Origin: Halobacteriales archaeon QS_5_70_17 | GTDB taxonomy: Archaea; Halobacteriota; Halobacteria; Halobacteriales; Haloarculaceae | Assembly: GCA_003021975.1 (NCBI GenBank) | Contig: PXRR01000073.1 | Location: 1 to 40,480 of the forward strand | Direction: 5' to 3' | DNA: 40,480 bases | In this document: piece after piece, positions 21,888 to 32,564 of the stretch | Layout of the letters: every line of letters begins with the position of its first letter | How positions within the stretch are numbered: position 1 is the first letter of the stretch | Made by a program: the position numbers and the translations under genes | Notes under the pieces: generated by a model | Seen by the model: the letters and a program-made list of their open reading frames with translations, nothing else | What the model was told of the DNA's origin: nothing | The model's database searches: none

Positions 21888-23750
21888 TCAGTAGCTACGG
21901 ACCTTGGGTTCGTAGGTCTTCTCCTCGCCTTCCAAGATGACCGGCTTGTAGTACAGCTCCGGACGGCCGCCGTTCCACTGGACTATGGTGTGTTTGATCC
22001 ACTCGTCGTCCTTGCGCTCCTGGTGTTCCTTGCGCCAGTGGGCGCCCCGGAACTCGGTGCGCGCGAGCGCACCCATCGTGAGCGCCTCGGCGAGGTCGAT
22101 GAGGTTGCGCGTCTCGATGGTCTGGATGATGTCGGTGTTGTAGGTGCGCGAGGGGTCGCTGACGGCGACGTCGCGGTAGCGCTCCCGGCACTCGTGGATG
22201 TCCTCCAGTGCCTGCTTGAGGCCCTCTTCCTGGCGGAAGACGTTGACGTGGTCCGTCATCGACTTCTGGAGGTCGCCCCGGATCTCGGCGTGGTTGACGC
22301 CCTCCCGCTCCATCAGCCGCTCGACGCGTGCGCGCTCGCGCTCGACGGCCCGCTCGACGACCTCGCCGGCGGGGGCGTCGAGCAGCGCGCCGCCGTCGGC
22401 CGCCCTCGACCCGCCGTCGGCGACGACGTCCTCGCCGGTCGCGCCGACCTCGCCCGGGGTGACCGGCGTGTCGATGGATCCGTCCTCGCTCTTGGCGGAG
22501 GGGCCCGTCTCGATCCGGGCCTCCGCGCGGTCGCGGCGGGCGGCGTGACGGCCGGCCCGCGCGCCGAAGACGATCAGCTCCGGGAGGGCGTTGCCGCCAA
22601 GCCGGTTGGCGCCGTGGACAGAGACGCAGGCGCACTCCCCGGCGGCGTAGAGGCCGTCGATGCAGGTTGCGCCGTTCTCGTCGGTCTCGATCCCGCCCAT
22701 CTCGTAGTGCTGGCCGGGCTTGACGCGCATCGGCTCCTCGAGGGGATCGACCCCTTCGAAGTCCTTCGAGAGGTGGATGATGTTCTCCAGCCGGTCGGTG
22801 ATGCGCTCCTCGCCGAGATGGCGCATGTCGAGCAGGACGTGGTCGTCCTCGAAGCCCCGCCCCTCGTTGATCTCAGTGAGTTCCGCGCGCGCGACCACGT
22901 CGCGGCTGGCGAGTTCGCCGACGTTGTTGGCGTACCCGCGCTCGAACATGAACCGCTCGCCCTCGGTGTTGTAGAGGATGCCGCCCTCGCCGCGGACTCC
23001 CTCGGTGATCAGCACGCCCGTCGAGGGGAGCGTCGTCGGGTGGAACTGGACGAACTCCATGTCCTCGAGGGGGGCCCCGGCGCGGTAGGCCATCGCCGCC
23101 CCGTCGCCCGTGTTGGCGACGGCGTTGGTCGTGTGGTCGTACATCTGGCCCGTCCCGCCGGTCGCGATGACGACGCCGTCGTTCGCGGTGAACCCGTTGA
23201 CGTCGCCGGTCTTGATGTCGTAGGCCACGCAGCCGTAACACTGCCGGTCCTCGGGGTCGTCGTGGTCGGTCACCGCGAGGTTCATCACGTAGTGCTCGTC
23301 GTACACCCGGATGCCCCGCTTGATGACCTGCTGGTACATCGTGTGCAGCAGGTGGTGGCCGGTTTCGGCGCCCGCGTAGGTCGTCCGCGGGAACGAGAGG
23401 CCGCCGAACGGCCGCTGGCTCACCCGGCCGTCGTCGTCCCGGGAGAACGCCATCCCCCAGTGTTCGAGCTGCATGGTCTCGCGGGGGCTGTCCTGACAGA
23501 GGGTCTCGATCGCGGGGGCGTCACCGAGGTAGTCCGACCCCTTCATCGTGTCGTAGGCGTGGTCCTCCCAGGAGTCGCCCTCCCGGAGCGCGGCGTTGAT
23601 GCCGCCCTCGGCCGCGCCCGTGTGCGAGCGGACCGGATGGAGCTTCGAGACCAGGGCGACGTCCGCCCCCTCTTCCTGTGCTGCGATCGCCGCACGGAGT
23701 CCTGCGCCCCCTGCGCCGACCACGATGACGTCGTGTTCGTGAATGGCCAT
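21888..23750 (-). CDS. sdhA: Succinate dehydrogenase flavoprotein subunit
   Basis: 620 residues. FAD-binding N terminus (MAIHEHDVIVVGAGGAGLRAAIAAQEEGADVALVSKLHPVRSHTGAAEGGINAAL; the His in RSHTGAAEGG is the usual covalent FAD site), ATGGTGQMYDHTTNA, QFHPTTLPSTGVLITEGVRGEGG, then GGIETDENGATCIDGLYAAGECACVSVHGANRLGGNALPEL and a C-terminal helical domain. It oxidises succinate to fumarate. An acidic insert (about 410-460, SEDGSIDTPVTPGEVGATGEDV) looks like a haloarchaeal addition. Last gene of the sdhCDBA operon, 42 bases after sdhB. Confidence 0.95.
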   Translation of the reverse strand: MAIHEHDVIVVGAGGAGLRAAIAAQEEGADVALVSKLHPVRSHTGAAEGGINAALREGDSWEDHAYDTMKGSDYLGDAPAIETLCQDSPRETMQLEHWGMAFSRDDDGRVSQRPFGGLSFPRTTYAGAETGHHLLHTMYQQVIKRGIRVYDEHYVMNLAVTDHDDPEDRQCYGCVAYDIKTGDVNGFTANDGVVIATGGTGQMYDHTTNAVANTGDGAAMAYRAGAPLEDMEFVQFHPTTLPSTGVLITEGVRGEGGILYNTEGERFMFERGYANNVGELASRDVVARAELTEINEGRGFEDDHVLLDMRHLGEERITDRLENIIHLSKDFEGVDPLEEPMRVKPGQHYEMGGIETDENGATCIDGLYAAGECACVSVHGANRLGGNALPELIVFGARAGRHAARRDRAEARIETGPSAKSEDGSIDTPVTPGEVGATGEDVVADGGSRAADGGALLDAPAGEVVERAVERERARVERLMEREGVNHAEIRGDLQKSMTDHVNVFRQEEGLKQALEDIHECRERYRDVAVSDPSRTYNTDIIQTIETRNLIDLAEALTMGALARTEFRGAHWRKEHQERKDDEWIKHTIVQWNGGRPELYYKPVILEGEEKTYEPKVRSY

Positions 23751-23792
23751 AGTTGGGTACTGTGAGTCGCGGTCGCTATTGAGTGGTTCGTG

Positions 23793-24689
23793 CTACCAGA
23801 ACTTGAGGTTGTTCTTCACCGCTTCCCGTTTGAGCTCCTGAATGTGCTCCGTCAGCGGGATGTCCTTCGGGCAGACCTCGGTACAGGAGAACTGCGTCTG
23901 GCACCGCCAGACGCCCTGCTCCTGTTCGAGGATCTCCAGGCGCTCCTGTTTCACGGCCTCGCCCTCGCGCTCGTCCATCGCGAACTGGTAGGCCTTGTTG
24001 ATCGCCGCCGGGCCGAGGTAGTCGTTGTTGCCCGCCGCGATGTTACACGAGGACATGCACGCGCCACACCAGATACAGCGCGTCGACATCTTGATCTTCT
24101 CCCGGTTCTCGCGCGACTGGCGCTGTTCTTCCAGTTCGCCGGGAACGTCGTCGCCCTGGAAGTACGGTTCGACGGCGTCCATCTGGTCGTAGAAGTGCTG
24201 CATGTCCACGACGAGGTCCTTCACGACCTCCTGGTGGGGGAGCGGTTCGACTCGAACCGGGTTCGAGAGGTCGCTCAACTGGGTCTTGCAGCCGAGTCGC
24301 TGGCTCCCGTTGATGAAGAAGGCGTCGGACCCGCAGATCGCCTGCCGGCAGGAGTGCCTGAACGTGAGACTGGAGTCGTAGTGATCGCGCGCGTAGATCA
24401 GCGCGTCGAGGACGGTCATCCCCTTCCGGTAGGGGACGGTGAACTCGTCGAAACGGGGCTCCTCCTTGCCCTCGACTTCGGGGTCGTAGCGGAAGACCTT
24501 CAGCGTCCGCGTGTCGCCCTCGATCCCGGCGCGCTCCCGTTCGCGCTCGGTCTCGCGGTCCGCGGCGCGCCGGCGCTTCTCGTCCATGCGCCGCTGCCGG
24601 GCGGGGGCCGTCTCGGCGCCCGCTTCGGTTTCGGTCTCGGGTTCGCTCTCGGTCGATTCCTCCTCTCGTTCGGTGATTTGCGTGCTCAT
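23793..24689 (-). CDS. sdhB: Succinate dehydrogenase iron-sulfur subunit
   Basis: 298 residues from the ATG at 24689. The first 55 residues are a Glu/Arg-rich, disordered extension absent from bacterial SdhB. The ferredoxin-like domain has CRQAICGSDAFFINGSQRLGC for [2Fe-2S], with Asp at the third ligand position as in E. coli SdhB, followed by CIWCGACMSSC for [4Fe-4S] and CQTQFSCTEVCPKD for [3Fe-4S]. It carries electrons from SdhA to quinone at the membrane anchor. It overlaps no neighbour but sits 2 bases after sdhD. Confidence 0.95.
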   Translation of the reverse strand: MSTQITEREEESTESEPETETEAGAETAPARQRRMDEKRRRAADRETERERERAGIEGDTRTLKVFRYDPEVEGKEEPRFDEFTVPYRKGMTVLDALIYARDHYDSSLTFRHSCRQAICGSDAFFINGSQRLGCKTQLSDLSNPVRVEPLPHQEVVKDLVVDMQHFYDQMDAVEPYFQGDDVPGELEEQRQSRENREKIKMSTRCIWCGACMSSCNIAAGNNDYLGPAAINKAYQFAMDEREGEAVKQERLEILEQEQGVWRCQTQFSCTEVCPKDIPLTEHIQELKREAVKNNLKFW

Positions 24690-24691
24690 TG

Positions 24692-25063
24692 TTACGCGAT
24701 AGTGACGCCGGCCATAGCCATCGCGACGCGGATCCCCTGGATCACGAGCGCGAGGCCGACGATGGCTAGGCCGTACTTGACGACTGTGCGTGCCGTCCCG
24801 TCGAGGCCCTGGTTGAGCAGGGCGTTGTAGACGCCGTTGACGCCGTGGAAGGTCCCGGTCGCGAGGAACAGCACCATGGTCGCGAAGTACCCGGGCTGTT
24901 GCATCCGGGCGGTGGTCCCCGCGAAGGTGATCTCGGCGGCGTGGTTGACGAAGTGCAACAGCATGAAGTGGAAGGCGAGGATCCCGATCAGGAACACCGC
25001 CGTCAGCCGCTGGAGTAGCCACAGCGAGCCGTTCCCGCGGAACGAGGAGTACCGCTCGGCCAT
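24692..25063 (-). CDS. sdhD: Succinate dehydrogenase membrane anchor subunit
   Basis: 123 residues with three hydrophobic helices (LLQRLTAVFLIGILAFHFMLLHFV, GYFATMVLFLATGTFHGVNGVY, VVKYGLAIVGLALVIQGIRVAM). His residues in LAFHFMLLHFVNHA and GTFHGVNG are candidates for haem b or quinone contacts. With SdhC it anchors SdhAB to the membrane and binds quinone. One base separates the sdhC stop from its ATG, so translation is coupled. Confidence 0.88.
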   Translation of the reverse strand: MAERYSSFRGNGSLWLLQRLTAVFLIGILAFHFMLLHFVNHAAEITFAGTTARMQQPGYFATMVLFLATGTFHGVNGVYNALLNQGLDGTARTVVKYGLAIVGLALVIQGIRVAMAMAGVTIA

Positions 25064-25064
25064 C

Positions 25065-25481
25065 TCAGATCGCCCCCGTGAGGAACGTCGGGATCGACGC
25101 CACCACGATCGCTCCGGTGAGGATCACCGAGGCGTAGAAGCTCTTGTCCTGCGAGTCCAGGCCCACCCCGAGGTCGACGAACAGCAAGCGCACGCCGTTG
25201 AGGATGTGGAAGACGGCGACCGCCAGCAGGCCGATCTCGAGGAAGCGCACGACCAGCAGCGACTCGAGGCCCTGGAGGGTCGTGGTGTAGATGTCGCCGC
25301 CGGCCGCCGCGCCCCCCTCCGCGGCCGGGATAGCGGTGCTCAGTACCGCGATGTGGGTGAACAGGTAGCCGACGAGGACCCAGCCGGTGAACTTGTGGAA
25401 CACCCAGGCCCACATGCCGGCGGAGAACTCTCGCCACCGGCCGAAGTCCTCGACTGCGCCCCTGTCGTACGATTGGCTCAT
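25065..25481 (-). CDS. sdhC: Succinate dehydrogenase cytochrome b556 subunit
   Basis: 138 residues with three membrane helices. [26 protein letters not shown] contains the conserved HKFTG (helix I) and a likely haem-ligand His, and [16 protein letters not shown] resembles the H-x-x-x-G-x-R signature of SdhC. First gene of sdhCDBA. An insert after helix I is Gly/Ala-rich ([11 protein letters not shown]). The minus-strand ACTATACC (25506-25513), 25-32 bases upstream, is a plausible TATA box for the whole operon. Confidence 0.9.
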
Positions 25482-25505
25482 GTAGGTGAATGACAGGCGA
25501 CGCCC

Positions 25506-25513
25506 CGGTATAG
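25506..25513 (-). promoter_or_regulatory. TATA-like box of sdhCDBA
   Basis: ACTATACC on the minus strand lies 25-32 bases before the sdhC ATG (25481), consistent with a leaderless operon transcript. Confidence 0.5.
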
Positions 25514-25599
25514 TAGTTGGTGAATTACTCCTGTTAATGCCGCGAACGGGGGCCGTCTGCCCGCCGCCGTGTCGGGATCGTCGGCCCGCGCCCGGCCCG

Positions 25600-26643
25600 T
25601 CAGGAGCGGTACGCGCCGCTCTGCTCCTGTTCGAGCGCCCGGAGCGTGGTCGCGCCGGGCGCGACGAGGTGGCAGAGCGGGTTCCCCGGGTACACGAGCG
25701 GGTTCTCGAGGACGCCGACGAGCAGTCCGGTGAACGGCGCCTCGACGGCCACGCGGTCGGCCCGGAACGGGTCGGCGATCGTACAGATCGTGTCGCCCTC
25801 GTAGACGAGCGCCCCGCGCTCGTAGTGCATCTCGACGAGGCCGCCGACGTCCGCCCGGAGCCAGGTCTTCTCCTCGGAGTCCTCGATGACGGTCCGCCAG
25901 CCCGGCCACTTGACCGTCCCTGTCTCGTGGAGTCCGAACTCCGCGAGGACGCTCGAGACGCCGTCCAGCGCCCGGTCGATCAGTTCGCGCTGGAAGCGGT
26001 GGGCCTCGCCCATCTCGATCGTGACCGTCGGCGTGCCCGCCAGCGTCGCCTCCCGCCGGAGCGTGCCGTCGGGGCCCTCGCTCGAGAGGATGACGTTCGA
26101 CGCGAAGGCGTTCGCCAGCCGCGTCACCCTGGAGTCGTCCATGTCCGCGCGGACGTGGAGCATGTTGGTCCGGCCCCGCGTCGACGTGTGGAAGTCGAGC
26201 CCGTAGTCGCAGGGCTCCACGAAGTTCCGGAAGATTCGGTGGGCCATCCGCTTGGCTCCGGTCGAGGAACTGCTGCCCGGGAACGACCGATTGAGGTCGC
26301 GGTCGTAGATCGGAAGGTACCGCTGCTGGGCGATGAACGCCGGGACGTTCAAGACGGGGAGACAGACCAGCGTCCCCGCGAGGTCGGTGTGGTCCCAGCC
26401 GTGTGCGACCTCCCGGACGACCTCGACGCCGTTGAGTTCGTCGCCGTGGGCGGCCGCGCTCAGGAACACCGTCGGCCCCGCCGCCTCCCCGTTGACGACC
26501 GTCACGGGAATGCGGACCGGGTCGCCGAGGTACGTCTCGCTGACGCTGTACCGGACGTTCTGGGTCCCCCCGGGTGGGACCGTCCCGCCGTTGTAGGTGA
26601 ACGCCTCGGGCTCCGCGCGCTCCGGGGGTTCCGCGTCCGCCAT
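25600..26643 (-). CDS. Succinylglutamate desuccinylase/aspartoacylase family hydrolase
   Basis: 347 residues from the ATG at 26643; a TATA-like GATTTACG (26665-26672) lies 22-29 bases upstream. The zinc-carboxypeptidase-like fold is shown by [18 protein letters not shown] (HxxE metal ligands), [12 protein letters not shown] (Asn-Arg substrate-binding motif) and [14 protein letters not shown] (third ligand His), with a C-terminal beta domain ([20 protein letters not shown]) that closes over the site. Relatives remove acyl groups from amino acids or hydrolyse amide bonds of acidic residues. It is divergent from the RimK-protease fusion gene (126 bases between starts), a pairing known for ATP-grasp peptide-ligase systems. 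Confidence 0.85.
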
Positions 26644-26769
26644 ACGGGTACCCGTCCCCCGACGTAAATCGCTCTTTCGACCGGCGCCGCAGGAGGCACG
26701 AGCGCTCTCGGGCGACGCCGCCTCCGGCCGACCGGCACGCCTTTCACAGCGCCCCGTGACCCCACGGAC

Positions 26770-28116
26770 ATGCCCGACGACGACGGACCCGTCCGGGTCG
26801 GGGTCCTCTCGCTTCACAACAGCAAGGAGACCAAGGCGATCCTCAACGCCATCGAGGACCTCGGCCACGAGACCGAGTGGCTCCGCCGGGAGAACACCGC
26901 CGTCGCCATCAAGAACGGCGAGGTGCGGATCGAACCCGAAGTCGACGTCATCGCCAACCGGCTGTTGCTCTCGAACACGGAGGAACCCGCGGAGGGCCTG
27001 GGCCTGGCGACGACGTTCAACCGACTCCGGCCCATGCTCAACCAGCCGGGGGCGGTGCTGACGGCCATCCACAAGTTCGCCACCGCGGTGACGCTGGCCG
27101 ACTGGAACATCAAGGTCCCCGACGCCCTGCTGGCGCTGTCGAACGGTCGACTCAACCAGGGTCGGGAGCGGTTCGGCGAGGAGGGCGTCTACAAGACCGC
27201 CATCGGAACCCACGGCGGCGGCACCTGGAAGGTCGATCTCACGACGCCCGTCAACCCGAAGGTCGGCAACCGGCAGGCGTTCCTCCAGTCGTTCGTCGAG
27301 CACGGCGAGGGGCCGCCCCGCGACCTCCGGGTGTACGTCGTCGACGAACAGGTGATCGGCGCGATGAACCGCTTCGCTCCGGAGGGGGAGTGGCGGACCA
27401 ACGTCGCGCTGGGCGGCGACATCGAGGACATGACCGGCGAACTCCCGACGGAGGCCCGCGAGACGGCCCTCTACGCCACGGAGGTCATCGGGCTCGACTA
27501 CGCCGGCGTCGACCTCATCGAGGGGAAGGACGGCTGGTACGTCCTCGAGGTGAACCCGACCGCCGGCTTCAAGGGGCTGTACCAGGCCACCGGCCACAGC
27601 CCCGCGCCCTACATCGCGCGGCTGGCCATCGAGCGGGCCGGCGGCACCGTCGACGACGACCGGGTGCGCGACCTCGCCGCGACGCTCGACGACTCGACGC
27701 CCAGCGCCAAGCCGCCCTCGGCGGCTACTCAGGCCGAGGACACGCCGCTGATCGGCTACATCGAGGAGGTCGTCGTCAGCGGGACCAGCGGCTCCCAGAC
27801 GACCCTCGCGAAGTCCGACACCGGCGCGACCCGGACCAGCATCGACACGTCGCTGGCCGCCGAGATCGGCGCCGGCCCGATCAAGAGCATGACCCGCGTC
27901 CGGTCTGGGAGTACGAAGGGGGGCAAGGCCCGCCCCGTGGTCGACCTCGTGATCGGCATCGGCGGCCGCCAGCACACCGTCACCGCGAGCGTCGAGGACC
28001 GCTCGCACATGGACTACCCGCTCTTGCTCGGCCGGGACATCCTCGAACACTACCAGGTGGACGTCCGCCGCCGGGCCGACAGCGACCGCCCGCGGAAGGA
28101 ACCGGACCTGGAGTAA
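26770..28116 (+). CDS. RimK-type ATP-grasp glutamate ligase fused to a retropepsin-like ATP-dependent zinc protease domain
   Basis: 448 residues. Residues 1-285 are a RimK-like ATP-grasp ligase: VGVLSLHNSKETKAILNAIEDLGHETEWL, the central AIGTHGGGTWKVDL loop, VYVVDEQVIGAMNR, and the metal-binding LEVNPTAGFKGLYQATGHSPAPYI. Residues 325-440 are a domain of the 'putative ATP-dependent zinc protease' (RimB-like) family with the aspartic-protease-type DTGA (Asp350-Thr-Gly) in KSDTGATRTSID and LLLGRDIL near the end. A Thr/Ser/Pro-rich linker (about 300-325) joins them. RimK adds glutamates to a protein such as S6; RimB-type enzymes trim such tails. One chain thus appears to hold writer and eraser. 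The target is unknown. Divergent from a deacylase-family gene. Confidence 0.83.
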   Translation: MPDDDGPVRVGVLSLHNSKETKAILNAIEDLGHETEWLRRENTAVAIKNGEVRIEPEVDVIANRLLLSNTEEPAEGLGLATTFNRLRPMLNQPGAVLTAIHKFATAVTLADWNIKVPDALLALSNGRLNQGRERFGEEGVYKTAIGTHGGGTWKVDLTTPVNPKVGNRQAFLQSFVEHGEGPPRDLRVYVVDEQVIGAMNRFAPEGEWRTNVALGGDIEDMTGELPTEARETALYATEVIGLDYAGVDLIEGKDGWYVLEVNPTAGFKGLYQATGHSPAPYIARLAIERAGGTVDDDRVRDLAATLDDSTPSAKPPSAATQAEDTPLIGYIEEVVVSGTSGSQTTLAKSDTGATRTSIDTSLAAEIGAGPIKSMTRVRSGSTKGGKARPVVDLVIGIGGRQHTVTASVEDRSHMDYPLLLGRDILEHYQVDVRRRADSDRPRKEPDLE

Positions 28117-28915: not shown

Positions 28916-29070
28916 CGGTCGAAGTAGCGGCCGGGCGAGGATTTTCGTTACGGTCGCGGGCGTCTTCCGGGGCGGTCCGGAGCCCCGCGAGCGCCGCTCC
29001 CGGTCGACCGACGCCGGTCGCTGTTTCCGGCACTCCGGGACGTGGAACGGTACCGCATCTCGTCCCCTGG

Positions 29071-29077
29071 TTTTATC
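29071..29077 (+). promoter_or_regulatory. TATA-like box of the biotin operon
   Basis: TTTTATC begins 31 bases before the GTG at 29102 that I take as the bioB start. It supports that start over the in-frame ATG-like options at 29042 and implies a leaderless operon mRNA. No BirA-type operator is evident. Confidence 0.5.
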
Positions 29078-29101
29078 ACCCTGTCAACCGCGCGTGTTGC
29101 T

Positions 29102-30208
29102 GTGGTTCACGAGACAGGCAACCGGACGGTAGACGAGGCGGTCGCGCGGGTGCTCGACGGCGAGCGCCTCGACCGAACCGACGGGCTCGCGCTGCTGGCC
29201 CAACCGGTCGGGGAACTCGCCGCGGGCGCGGACCTGGTGCGCGCGCACTTCGGCGACGGGACCGTCGACGCCTGCAGCATCGTCAACGCGAAGGCGGGCG
29301 ACTGCGCCGAGGACTGCGGGTTCTGCGCCCAGTCGGTCCACTTCGACACCGGCATCGACACCTACGGCTTCCTCGACCCCGAGGAGATCCTCGCGGCGGC
29401 GAAGCGGGCCGAGCGCGACGGCGCCCAGCGGTTCGGCGTCGTCGTCGCCGAGAAGGGCGTCTCCAAGGAGCGCCGCCCCGAGGAGTGGGCCGAGGTGCTC
29501 CGCGCGATCCGGCTGGTCCGCGAGGAGACCGCGATCGAGGTCGACGCCAGCCTCGGCATCCTCACCGAGGAGGAGGCCCGGATCCTGGCCAGCGAGGGGA
29601 TCAACCACTACAACCACAACATCGAGACGTCGCCGCGGTACTTCCCGGAGATCGTCTCCACGCACTCCTTCGAGGACCGCGTCGAGACGCTCGAAGTCGC
29701 TAAGGAGGCGGGGATGGACCTCTGCGCCGGCGTCATCCTCGGGATGGGCGAGACGCCGACCGACCGGGTCGACGCCGCCGTGGCGCTCCAAGAGGTCGGC
29801 GTCTCCTCGCTGCCGGTAAACGTGCTCAACCCCGTCGCGGGAACCGCTCTCGGCGACCGCGAGTCGGCGGAGATCACCACCGAGGAGATCGTCAAGACCG
29901 TCGCCGTCTACCGGCTGCTCCACCCCCACGCGCGGGTCCGGCTGACGGGGGGCCGGGAGGTCAACCTCGATCCCGACGAGCAGCACCTCCCCTTCGAGGC
30001 CGGCGCCGACGGCATCCTCACGGGCGACTACCTCACGACGGAGGGGCAGTCGCCGGCCGACGACATCGAGATCGTCGAGCGCGCGGGCCTGCGGCCCAAC
30101 AGGGCGGTCAACGACTTCGACCGCGAGGAGGTGGGCGGCGAGGGGACCGGCGACCCTGCGGAGTCGACGGCCGTGGGCAGCGCGACCAGCAACGCGCGCG
30201 ACGACTGA
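29102..30208 (+). CDS. bioB: Biotin synthase
   Basis: 368 residues from the GTG at 29102, chosen because the TATA-like box at 29071 would be inside a longer gene and because MVHETGNRTVDEAVARVLDGERL fits the family N terminus. It has the radical-SAM motif DCAEDCGFCAQS (CxxxCxxC, Cys78 region), NHYNHNIETSPRYFPE, GVILGMGET and VRLTGGREVNL with the Arg that coordinates the second cluster. It inserts sulfur into dethiobiotin to make biotin. The C-terminal 30 residues are disordered and acidic. First gene of bioB-bioU-bioF-bioD. Confidence 0.95.
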   Translation: MVHETGNRTVDEAVARVLDGERLDRTDGLALLAQPVGELAAGADLVRAHFGDGTVDACSIVNAKAGDCAEDCGFCAQSVHFDTGIDTYGFLDPEEILAAAKRAERDGAQRFGVVVAEKGVSKERRPEEWAEVLRAIRLVREETAIEVDASLGILTEEEARILASEGINHYNHNIETSPRYFPEIVSTHSFEDRVETLEVAKEAGMDLCAGVILGMGETPTDRVDAAVALQEVGVSSLPVNVLNPVAGTALGDRESAEITTEEIVKTVAVYRLLHPHARVRLTGGREVNLDPDEQHLPFEAGADGILTGDYLTTEGQSPADDIEIVERAGLRPNRAVNDFDREEVGGEGTGDPAESTAVGSATSNARDD

Positions 30209-30228
30209 GATAGATAATATCACACACC

Positions 30229-31257
30229 ATGGACGACGTTCGATTCGCGGTACTGGGAACTGGGGGTATCGGCCGACGGACGCTCGAGGTCTCGACCGAG
30301 AAGGCGGGGGTGACCCCGGTGGCGGCCTGCGACCGCCACGGGATCGCCGTCGACCGCGATGGCCTCGACATCGAGGAACTGCTCGCGGCGACGGAGGGCA
30401 ACGTCGCCAGCGACGGTGGTGCGGGCGCCGTGAAACAGCACGGCGAGCTGAGCGGCGTCGCCGCCTCGGCGCAGGCCCGCCCGACGGAGACGCCCATCGA
30501 CGACGTCATCGCGGAGAGCGACGACCTCGACGCCGTGTTGATCGCGCTCCCGAACCTCGAACACGACTTCATCCCACGGGTCGCCGAGCGGTTCGCCGAC
30601 GCCGGCTACGAGGGCGTCCTAGTGGACGTGCTCAAGCGTTCGCGGGTCATCGGCATGCTCGACGACCGCGAGGCGACCCTCCGGGAAGCGGGGATCACTT
30701 TCGTCTGCGGCGCGGGGGCGACCCCCGGATTCCTGACCGGCGCGGCGGCGCTGGCCGCCCAGTCGTTCGTCGAGGTCGAGGCGGTCGAGATCTGGTGGGG
30801 GGTCGGCCTGAAGTCCGGGTACCGGGACAACCGCGGGACCGTCCGGGAGGACATCGCTCACCTCGACGGCTACGACATCGAGACGGCCCGCGAACTGACC
30901 GACGAGGAGATCGAGGAGATCGTCGACGCCCACGACGGCGTCTTGGAGTTCCACGACATGGAACACGCCGACGACGTCCTCCTCGAACGGGCGGGGATCT
31001 GTGACGCCGAGGACGTCACCGTCGGCGGCGTGCTCGACGTCCGCAGCGACGAGAAGCCGACGACGACGACCGTCCGGGTGACCGGGCGGACCTTCGACGG
31101 CGAGCGCGGGACGAACACGTTCGAACTCGACGACGACACCAGCATGGCAGCCAACGTCAACGGGCCGGCGCTGGGCTACCTGAAGGCCGCCGTTCGCCGC
31201 AACCGGACCGGCGACTACGGCGTCTACGGCCCGGCGGAACTGATGCCCGGGTTCTGA
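30229..31257 (+). CDS. bioU: BioU-type (S)-8-amino-7-oxononanoate synthase-coupled enzyme (KAPA to DAPA conversion)
   Basis: 342 residues. It has an N-terminal dinucleotide fold (RFAVLGTGGIGRRTLEV) and resembles saccharopine-dehydrogenase-like oxidoreductases; database names are often just that. It lies between bioB and bioF, no bioA is in the operon, and the size fits BioU. BioU was shown in cyanobacteria to replace BioA: a single-turnover suicide enzyme that gives up the amino group of its own active-site Lys to convert KAPA to DAPA. Lys136 in VLVDVLKRSRVIGML is my candidate for that Lys, in place and context like the reported one; this is inference. Its stop codon shares one base with the bioF start. 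Confidence 0.75.
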   Translation: MDDVRFAVLGTGGIGRRTLEVSTEKAGVTPVAACDRHGIAVDRDGLDIEELLAATEGNVASDGGAGAVKQHGELSGVAASAQARPTETPIDDVIAESDDLDAVLIALPNLEHDFIPRVAERFADAGYEGVLVDVLKRSRVIGMLDDREATLREAGITFVCGAGATPGFLTGAAALAAQSFVEVEAVEIWWGVGLKSGYRDNRGTVREDIAHLDGYDIETARELTDEEIEEIVDAHDGVLEFHDMEHADDVLLERAGICDAEDVTVGGVLDVRSDEKPTTTTVRVTGRTFDGERGTNTFELDDDTSMAANVNGPALGYLKAAVRRNRTGDYGVYGPAELMPGF

Positions 31258-32564
31258 TGGACGGGGAGTCCACCGGCGATCCGGGGGAGAGACCGTCCGG
31301 CGGCGACGCGCCTGACCGCGCTCCGGGCGCGGACGACGGCGACTCCCGGTCCGGCAATCGCCCGGAGCGCGGCTTCGATCCGGCCGCGCGGCTGGCCGAG
31401 CGCGAGCGCAGGGGACTGCGCCGGGATCTCCGGCCCGTCGAGCGGGTCGCCGCCCGGACGCGCCGGGCCGTAGATCCCGGGGGCGGCGTCCCCGCCTTCG
31501 GCGGCGAGGAGCGGATCGTCTTCGCCGCCAACGACTACCTCGGGCTGGCGGGCGACGAGCGGGTCAGCGAGGCGGCCGCGCGGGCCGCCCGCGAGGTCGG
31601 GACCGGCGCGGGCGCGAGCCGACTGGTCACCGGCGACACTGGCCTCCACCGCGAACTGGAGCGGGATCTCGCCGCCTACGAGGGAACCGATCGCGCGCTC
31701 GTCTTCTCCTCGGGGTACGCCGCAAACGTCGGGGCGATCGGCGCGCTCGCCCCGGACGCGATCTTCTCGGACGAACTCAACCACGCCAGCATCGTCGACG
31801 GCTGCCGGATCTCGGGGGCGGAAACCGTAGTCTACGACCACTGCGACGCCGACGCCCTCGCGGCCGCCATGGACCGGCGCGCCGCGAGCGGCGGGGACGA
31901 GCGGTGGTTGGTCGTCACCGACAGCGTGTTCAGCATGGACGGCGACGTCGCCCCACTCGCGCGGATCTGCGAGGTCGCGGAGCGCCACGGCGCGTGGGTC
32001 ATGGTCGACGAGGCCCACGCGACCGGGCTCTACGAGGGCGGCGGGATCGTCGGCCGCGAGAGTCTCGGCGACCGCGTCCACGTCCGGGTGGGAACGCTCT
32101 CGAAGGCGCTGGCCGCGCAGGGCGGGTTCGTCGCGGGCGGCGAGGCGCTGATCGAGTACCTGCTCAACGCCGCGCGGTCGTTCGTCTTCTCGACGGGACT
32201 GGCGCCGCCGGCCGTCGGCGCCGCCCGCGAGGCGTTGTCGATCGCCAGCGACGGCGACCGGCGCTCCCGTCTGTGGGAGAACGCCGCCCGACTGCGCGAG
32301 GGCCTCGAGTCGCAGGGCTATCGCGTCCCCGGCGAGACCCAGATCCTGCCGGTCGTCGTCGGCGACGGCGCGGACGCGCTGGCGCTGGCCGACCGACTCG
32401 AGGAACGGGGGATCGTCGCGCCCGCGATTCAGCCGCCGACGGTCCCCGAGGGGACCAGCAGGATCCGCGTCGCCCCGCAGGCGACCCACACCGACGGGGA
32501 GGTCGACCGCTGTCTGGCCGCGTTCGAAGCCGCCGGCCGGGAACTGGGGCTGATCGACCCGTGA
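31257..32564 (+). CDS. bioF: 8-amino-7-oxononanoate synthase
   Basis: 435 residues, about 45 longer than typical BioF because of a low-complexity Gly/Asp/Arg N-terminal stretch (1-40). The PLP-enzyme core is clear: NDYLGLAGD, GTGAGASRLVTGDTGLHRELERDLA, DELNHASIVDGCRISGA, DSVFSMDGDVAPL, MVDEAHATGLY, and the PLP-Lys in GTLSKALAAQGG. It condenses pimeloyl-CoA (or acyl carrier) with alanine to KAPA. An alternative shorter start cannot be excluded. One-base overlap with bioU and GTGA overlap with bioD imply coupled translation. Confidence 0.93.
   Translation: MDGESTGDPGERPSGGDAPDRAPGADDGDSRSGNRPERGFDPAARLAERERRGLRRDLRPVERVAARTRRAVDPGGGVPAFGGEERIVFAANDYLGLAGDERVSEAAARAAREVGTGAGASRLVTGDTGLHRELERDLAAYEGTDRALVFSSGYAANVGAIGALAPDAIFSDELNHASIVDGCRISGAETVVYDHCDADALAAAMDRRAASGGDERWLVVTDSVFSMDGDVAPLARICEVAERHGAWVMVDEAHATGLYEGGGIVGRESLGDRVHVRVGTLSKALAAQGGFVAGGEALIEYLLNAARSFVFSTGLAPPAVGAAREALSIASDGDRRSRLWENAARLREGLESQGYRVPGETQILPVVVGDGADALALADRLEERGIVAPAIQPPTVPEGTSRIRVAPQATHTDGEVDRCLAAFEAAGRELGLIDP

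Follow-up and report, generated by a model that had tools for sequence, protein, structure and literature searches.

To our knowledge, RimK has been linked to C-terminal polyglutamylation mainly on bacterial ribosomes, and archaea are without the S6 target. LysX and ArgX are ligases of the RimK superfamily that act on the C-terminal glutamate of the carrier protein LysW. In Pseudomonas, RpsF is a target of RimK and RimB, the two enzymes also produce free poly-glutamate, RimB stimulates RimK, and RimB cleaves glutamate runs with a length of five or six or more (PMC11957791). RimK acceptors end in glutamate, as in the RpsF proteins of E. coli (...GDSEE) and P. fluorescens (...DNADE) (PMC11957791). 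A bacterial RimB-RimK hybrid from Desulfotalea psychrophila, with RimB placed first, was published in 2025; this hybrid cut polyglutamylated RpsF, the RpsF tested was not glutamylated by it, and the survey in that paper did not include archaea (PMC11957791).

In the window, the whole stretch of 40,480 nucleotides that was analysed, the first-pass annotation had described a RimK-type ligase fused to a RimB-like protease in one chain and facing a deacylase gene. This description was confirmed. The open reading frame is real, Pfam placed RimK N-terminally and a RimB/Rlo-type retropepsin C-terminally, and the facing gene, transcribed divergently at a distance of 126 bp, belongs to the AstE_AspA family (PF24827). 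The fusion is not a chance product because it was present in 349 of 392 Halobacteria genomes (E<1e-60) and its key residues were invariant in 40 members. No description of the haloarchaeal fusion protein was found in the literature searched. The features of the locus, by position in the window, are:

25065..25481, - strand: sdhC, which heads the sdhCDBA genes that lie downstream of AstE (neighbour by conserved synteny; probably outside the mechanism)
25600..26643, - strand: AstE/AspA-family hydrolase gene, 347 aa, divergent partner (PF24827; conserved motifs)
26644..26769, no strand: intergenic region of 126 bp between the divergent fusion and AstE genes, presumably with both promoters
26770..28116, + strand: fusion gene, RimK-type ATP-grasp ligase and RimB/Rlo-type retropepsin (448 aa ORF)
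26791..27636, + strand: ATP-grasp ligase region, residues 8-289, with Pfam RimK at 102-275 (Pfam, conservation, Foldseek)
27745..28065, + strand: retropepsin (RimB/RloA-like) domain, residues 326-432 (Pfam, alignment, AF2, Foldseek)
27811..27813, + strand: K348, counterpart of RloA K46, polyglutamate binding (9g58 alignment, conservation)
27817..27825, + strand: catalytic Asp350-Thr-Gly codons (invariant in 40 sequences)
27931..27933, + strand: R388, counterpart of RloA R114, polyglutamate binding (9g58 alignment, conservation)
28000..28002, + strand: R411, counterpart of RloA R137, polyglutamate binding (9g58 alignment, conservation)
28066..28113, + strand: variable acidic, probably disordered tail, residues 433-448, RRRADSDRPRKEPDLE (alignment; pLDDT <50 at 438-448)
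28111..28113, + strand: last sense codon, for Glu448, the proposed acceptor (conserved; 119 of 121 distinct proteins end in Glu)

The fusion resembles the D. psychrophila RimBK in that a RimK ATP-grasp ligase shares one chain with a RimB retropepsin, but RimB is N-terminal there and C-terminal in the haloarchaeal protein, which is further set apart by its linkage to AstE and by a conserved Glu or Glu-Glu at its end. The RimA-RimB-RimK system of Pseudomonas has a ligase and a retropepsin of the same superfamilies and an acceptor that ends in Glu; there, however, the genes are separate and the target is ribosomal, and the haloarchaeal ligase scored far under the RimK equivalog cut-off. Rlo of P. 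aeruginosa (the retropepsin RloA, RloB and the ATP-grasp protein RloC) offered the nearest solved structures and common polyglutamate-binding residues, whereas RloA is secreted and separate. A gene for RloB, which is membrane-bound and transglutaminase-like, adjoined none of the haloarchaeal loci examined. In Methanosarcinaceae, the three loci examined held an unfused rimB-rimK-astE operon, a distant relative in which the same three kinds of protein are encoded together, but its RimK is a true equivalog (479 bits, above the S6-ligase cut-off) and both RimK and RimB are without a terminal Glu. LysX/ArgX-LysW differs from the fusion in having a separate small carrier and no protease domain. The haloarchaeal fusion is new in its reversed domain order, archaeal host, linked AstE and conserved terminal Glu.

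The ligase and retropepsin domains

Both PF08443 and PF05618 scored above their gathering thresholds. In the window fusion, PF08443 (RimK) matched residues 102-275 (1.7e-23, 83.7 bits compared to 21 required), and Foldseek matched the fusion model to RimK, ArgX and LysX with E about 1e-19. In an alignment of 40 diverse fusion sequences, which included paralogs at 47-48% identity, the ligase residues K102, K142, D185, R187, R209, N211, D248, E260 and N262 were invariant, and K102, K142, D248, E260, N262, R187 and N211 were also unchanged compared to true RimK and LysX. The ligase reached 140.2 bits with TIGR00768 (RimK family alpha-L-glutamate ligase), just under the cut-off of 143.4, and failed PRK10446 (S6 ligase equivalog) with 57 bits compared to 331; thus the amino-acid substrate is not fixed by family. 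The polyglutamate contacts of RimK include S7, R8, R64, S68, R189 and N262 (PMC10092738). Placed by alignment and therefore approximate, S7, R64, S68, R189 and N262 appear to be matched in the fusion, and Arg8 is replaced by Leu.

The C-terminal domain matched PF05618 ("Zn_protease") at residues 371-435 (1.9e-9, 38 bits compared to a cut-off of 27) and Asp_protease_2 at residues 338-423. AF2 gave a pLDDT of 86 for this domain modelled alone and also 86 for the whole chain, which was modelled with 40 relatives. A Foldseek search with the domain model returned RloA2, Lpg0085 and RloA first, followed by the HIV-1 and Ddi1 proteases, and the closest solved structures were RloA2 (9g59) and RloA (9g58). 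The DTGA motif was found at Asp350 in KSDTGATRT, as had been annotated. Although the family name of PF05618 refers to a zinc protease, both the predicted fold and the motif identify the domain as an aspartic protease of the retropepsin type. K348, D350-T-G-A, R388, R411 and R422 were invariant in the 40 diverse members. The first-pass annotation thus withstood its own refutation test, which asked for an aspartic-protease fold by structure prediction and for conservation of the fusion and of DTGA. By their spacing in the 9g58 alignment, K348, R388 and R411 were assigned to K46, R114 and R137 of RloA, which contact polyglutamate (PMC12239564). NF052261 (RimB equivalog) gave no match at E<=0.001 for the fusion, and the best relative was RloA3, with 40.5 bits compared to a cut-off of 210.

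Because the curated RimK and RimB equivalog cut-offs failed, the fusion is filed by superfamily only, and its glutamate specificity is presumptive. With this reservation, the earlier idea that one chain adds and trims acidic tails gained support from the invariant ATP-grasp residues, the predicted retropepsin fold and the retention of three basic residues that would grip polyglutamate. The ligase part probably adds glutamate tails, and the retropepsin part probably cuts them off.

The AstE partner and the distribution of the gene pair

The facing gene matched PF24827 with 1.6e-49 (168.5 bits compared to 25), and its conserved residues are H66-x-x-E69, H152, N118-R119 and E210. The Asn-Arg pair in the AstE/AspA superfamily binds a terminal carboxylate. 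The gene failed the equivalog cut-offs for DoeB (98.9 compared to 402.7) and, with lower scores, for AstE and aspartoacylase. A second AstE/AspA-family paralog, about 31-35% identical, was present in all ten genomes checked.

AstE was found in 354 of the 392 Halobacteria genomes. When the presence tables were compared, 348 genomes had both genes, 37 had neither, 6 had AstE only and 1 had the fusion only (Fisher p 2e-44, phi 0.91, both inflated by relatedness). In the sole fusion-only genome the gene starts 133 bases from the contig end. At least eight genera hold both-gene genomes together with neither-gene genomes that are at least 95% complete. Three AstE-only genomes carried decayed remnants of the fusion beside an intact AstE, from which it follows that loss of the fusion need not entail loss of AstE:

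locus L114, 5276-5416: fusion remnant beside AstE
locus L165, 5819-6010: fusion remnant beside AstE
locus L166, 5991-6107: fusion remnant beside AstE

In other classes of the phylum, PF05618 matches were short stand-alone frames. A match across both domains on a Vibrio plasmid was rejected as a fusion, since it represented adjacent rimK and rimB read through a stop.

AstE lay divergently upstream of the fusion in 69 of 78 evaluable GTDB loci, with a gap of mostly 89-433 bp, and 38 loci also showed sdhC beyond AstE. In the window (21888-26643), sdhC-sdhD-sdhB-sdhA come after AstE in the same orientation, an arrangement kept in most haloarchaeal families examined. Three chromosomal second copies, and also plasmid copies in Halolamina and Halorarius, paired AstE with the fusion but had no sdh. 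The AstE-fusion pair is thus most likely the functional unit, with sdh as a conserved neighbour. Despite the wide sdhCDBA synteny, succinate dehydrogenase was rejected as a partner, as the second and plasmid copies are without sdh and the Sdh C-termini are not acidic. The neighbourhoods of second copies, taken as a clue to a target, held no recurrent gene besides AstE, and several other second fusion copies had no AstE nearby. The proposed tie between the fusion and the deacylase was strongly upheld: the two genes co-occur, lie divergently side by side and are also found together as a mobile pair.

Some loci departed from the common arrangement. In one family (L108, 5281-8602; L109, 7237-9792), a GNAT-like acetyltransferase gene and a polysaccharide-flippase-like gene, both named by eye, stood between the still-divergent AstE and fusion. 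In a Haladaptatus plasmid copy (L257, 9069-11520), AstE was co-directional and a gene of the glutamate-cysteine ligase family adjoined. A second fusion copy with 61% identity (L157, 6665-8002) contained an in-frame stop and is a probable pseudogene. On the other side of the window fusion, consecutive genes for a BioB-like protein of the radical SAM type, a protein resembling dehydrogenases and an aminotransferase of the class I/II family form a probable biotin locus (29042-32561).

The C-terminal glutamate and a proposed model of self-modification

The tail after the retropepsin domain is about 6-29 residues long, poorly conserved and predicted to be disordered; in the window fusion it ends in ...PDLE. 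Glu was the last residue in 119 of 121 distinct fusion proteins, a trait of RimK acceptors, and 96 of the 121 ended in Glu-Glu. Glu occupied 98% of the tails at position -1, 80% at -2 and 30% at -3, compared to 29% in the whole-tail composition. Among tails less than 50% alike, Glu was last in 53 of 54 (binomial 2e-27 on tail composition). The codons at -1 were GAG (123) and GAA (13), those at -2 were GAG (69) and GAA (45), and all three stop codons occurred after the terminal Glu; thus selection acts on the amino acid. The two exceptional fusions end in Gln, but their genes encode five or nine consecutive Glu directly before it. Only 12% of AstE proteins, 13% of HhH-GPD proteins and none of the Sdh subunits ended in Glu, and among the 14 neighbourhood families compared the highest value besides the fusion was 27%. 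On plasmids, 14 of 89 CDS ended in Glu and none of the 89 in Glu-Glu, while all seven plasmid fusions ended in Glu-Glu. Other RimK-family matches sampled, one of them a linked RimB, ended in Glu in 1 of 19 cases. The terminal Glu of the fusion is strongly conserved at the amino-acid level. The interpretation given in the first-pass annotation was partly supported; it had overlooked this Glu-Glu end, and the bacterial hybrid is a precedent for the fusion.

The conserved end points to the enzyme itself as a likely acceptor. As known RimK acceptors end in Glu and the fusion carries such an end, self-extension is the simplest explanation, and the fusion may well modify itself. With moderate confidence we propose a self-contained C-terminal glutamylation cycle in which the enzyme's own C-terminus is the first acceptor. 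At the expense of ATP, the ATP-grasp domain would attach glutamate, or perhaps a different acidic amino acid, to a glutamate at the C-terminus; as a dimer, the retropepsin domain would trim the chain once several glutamates stand in a row; and the AstE-type zinc hydrolase would take single C-terminal glutamates off the tail or the released oligoglutamate. The first acceptor would be the disordered Glu/Glu-Glu C-terminus of the fusion, either in cis or, within an oligomer, on the subunit next to it. We infer activity for both domains, glutamate as the amino acid added, modification of the tail and the role given here to AstE. Several points speak against the model: the ligase scores under the RimK cut-offs, Leu replaces the polyglutamate contact Arg8, and the bacterial hybrid did not glutamylate the RpsF tested. 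In some copies only about six residues extend beyond the retropepsin domain, too short for easy reach in cis, and conservation of the terminal Glu could have another cause. A more specific and tentative form of the model, which we think may apply but would not expect, is a self-priming synthase of polyglutamate, comparable to glycogenin but with glutamate as the building block: poly-alpha-glutamate would grow on the enzyme's own Glu-Glu, the retropepsin would release the chain, and AstE would turn it back into glutamate.

Following Pseudomonas, where RimK and RimB have RpsF as a target and free poly-glutamate as a product (PMC11957791), the fusion might instead write and erase tails on a separate haloarchaeal protein or on free poly-alpha-glutamate, with its own Glu-Glu tail as a regulatory pseudo-substrate competing for the site of the ligase or of the protease. 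Both active sites would accommodate a tail with a terminal Glu, and the core distribution fits a housekeeping target. Such a pseudo-substrate, however, could do without a free Glu at its end, yet conservation at position -1 far exceeds that at -3 to -12; no candidate target emerged, archaea are not known to have bS6, and we regard this explanation as unlikely. It is improbable that the retropepsin domain serves as a regulator that stimulates the ligase, as RimB does RimK in Pseudomonas (PMC11957791), with marginal protease activity; PF05618 does match well only the C-terminal half of the domain, but DTGA and all three polyglutamate-binding basic residues were invariant even in the 47-48% identity paralogs.

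The glutamate itself may have another meaning. If it carried an amino acid as LysW does for LysX/ArgX, AstE would release that amino acid and the product would be a metabolite, not a tail. The top Foldseek matches include ArgX-LysW and LysX beside RimK, LysW likewise ends in Glu, and AstE-type enzymes hydrolyse N-acyl amino acids; but the LysW scheme has no place for a polyglutamate-cutting protease domain, conserved biosynthetic neighbours were not seen, and second copies lie in unrelated contexts, which makes a carrier role quite improbable. Conservation unconnected with ligation, for example for solubility or to avoid C-terminal degradation, would agree with the acidic proteomes of haloarchaea and with a terminal Glu in about 12-16% of the neighbouring proteins. 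We give it very little weight, as other neighbourhood families stay at or below 27% and Glu-Glu ends were absent from the plasmid CDS.

In the self-acceptor cycle that we favour, a core haloarchaeal ligase-protease with a third hydrolase and an acceptor-like Glu-Glu end provides a concrete candidate substrate, namely the enzyme itself. This also suggests that AstE-type genes adjoining RimK genes share the same cycle. Haloferax is genetically tractable. The self-priming synthase, if true, would give haloarchaea a core cycle devoted to a polymer or to signalling.
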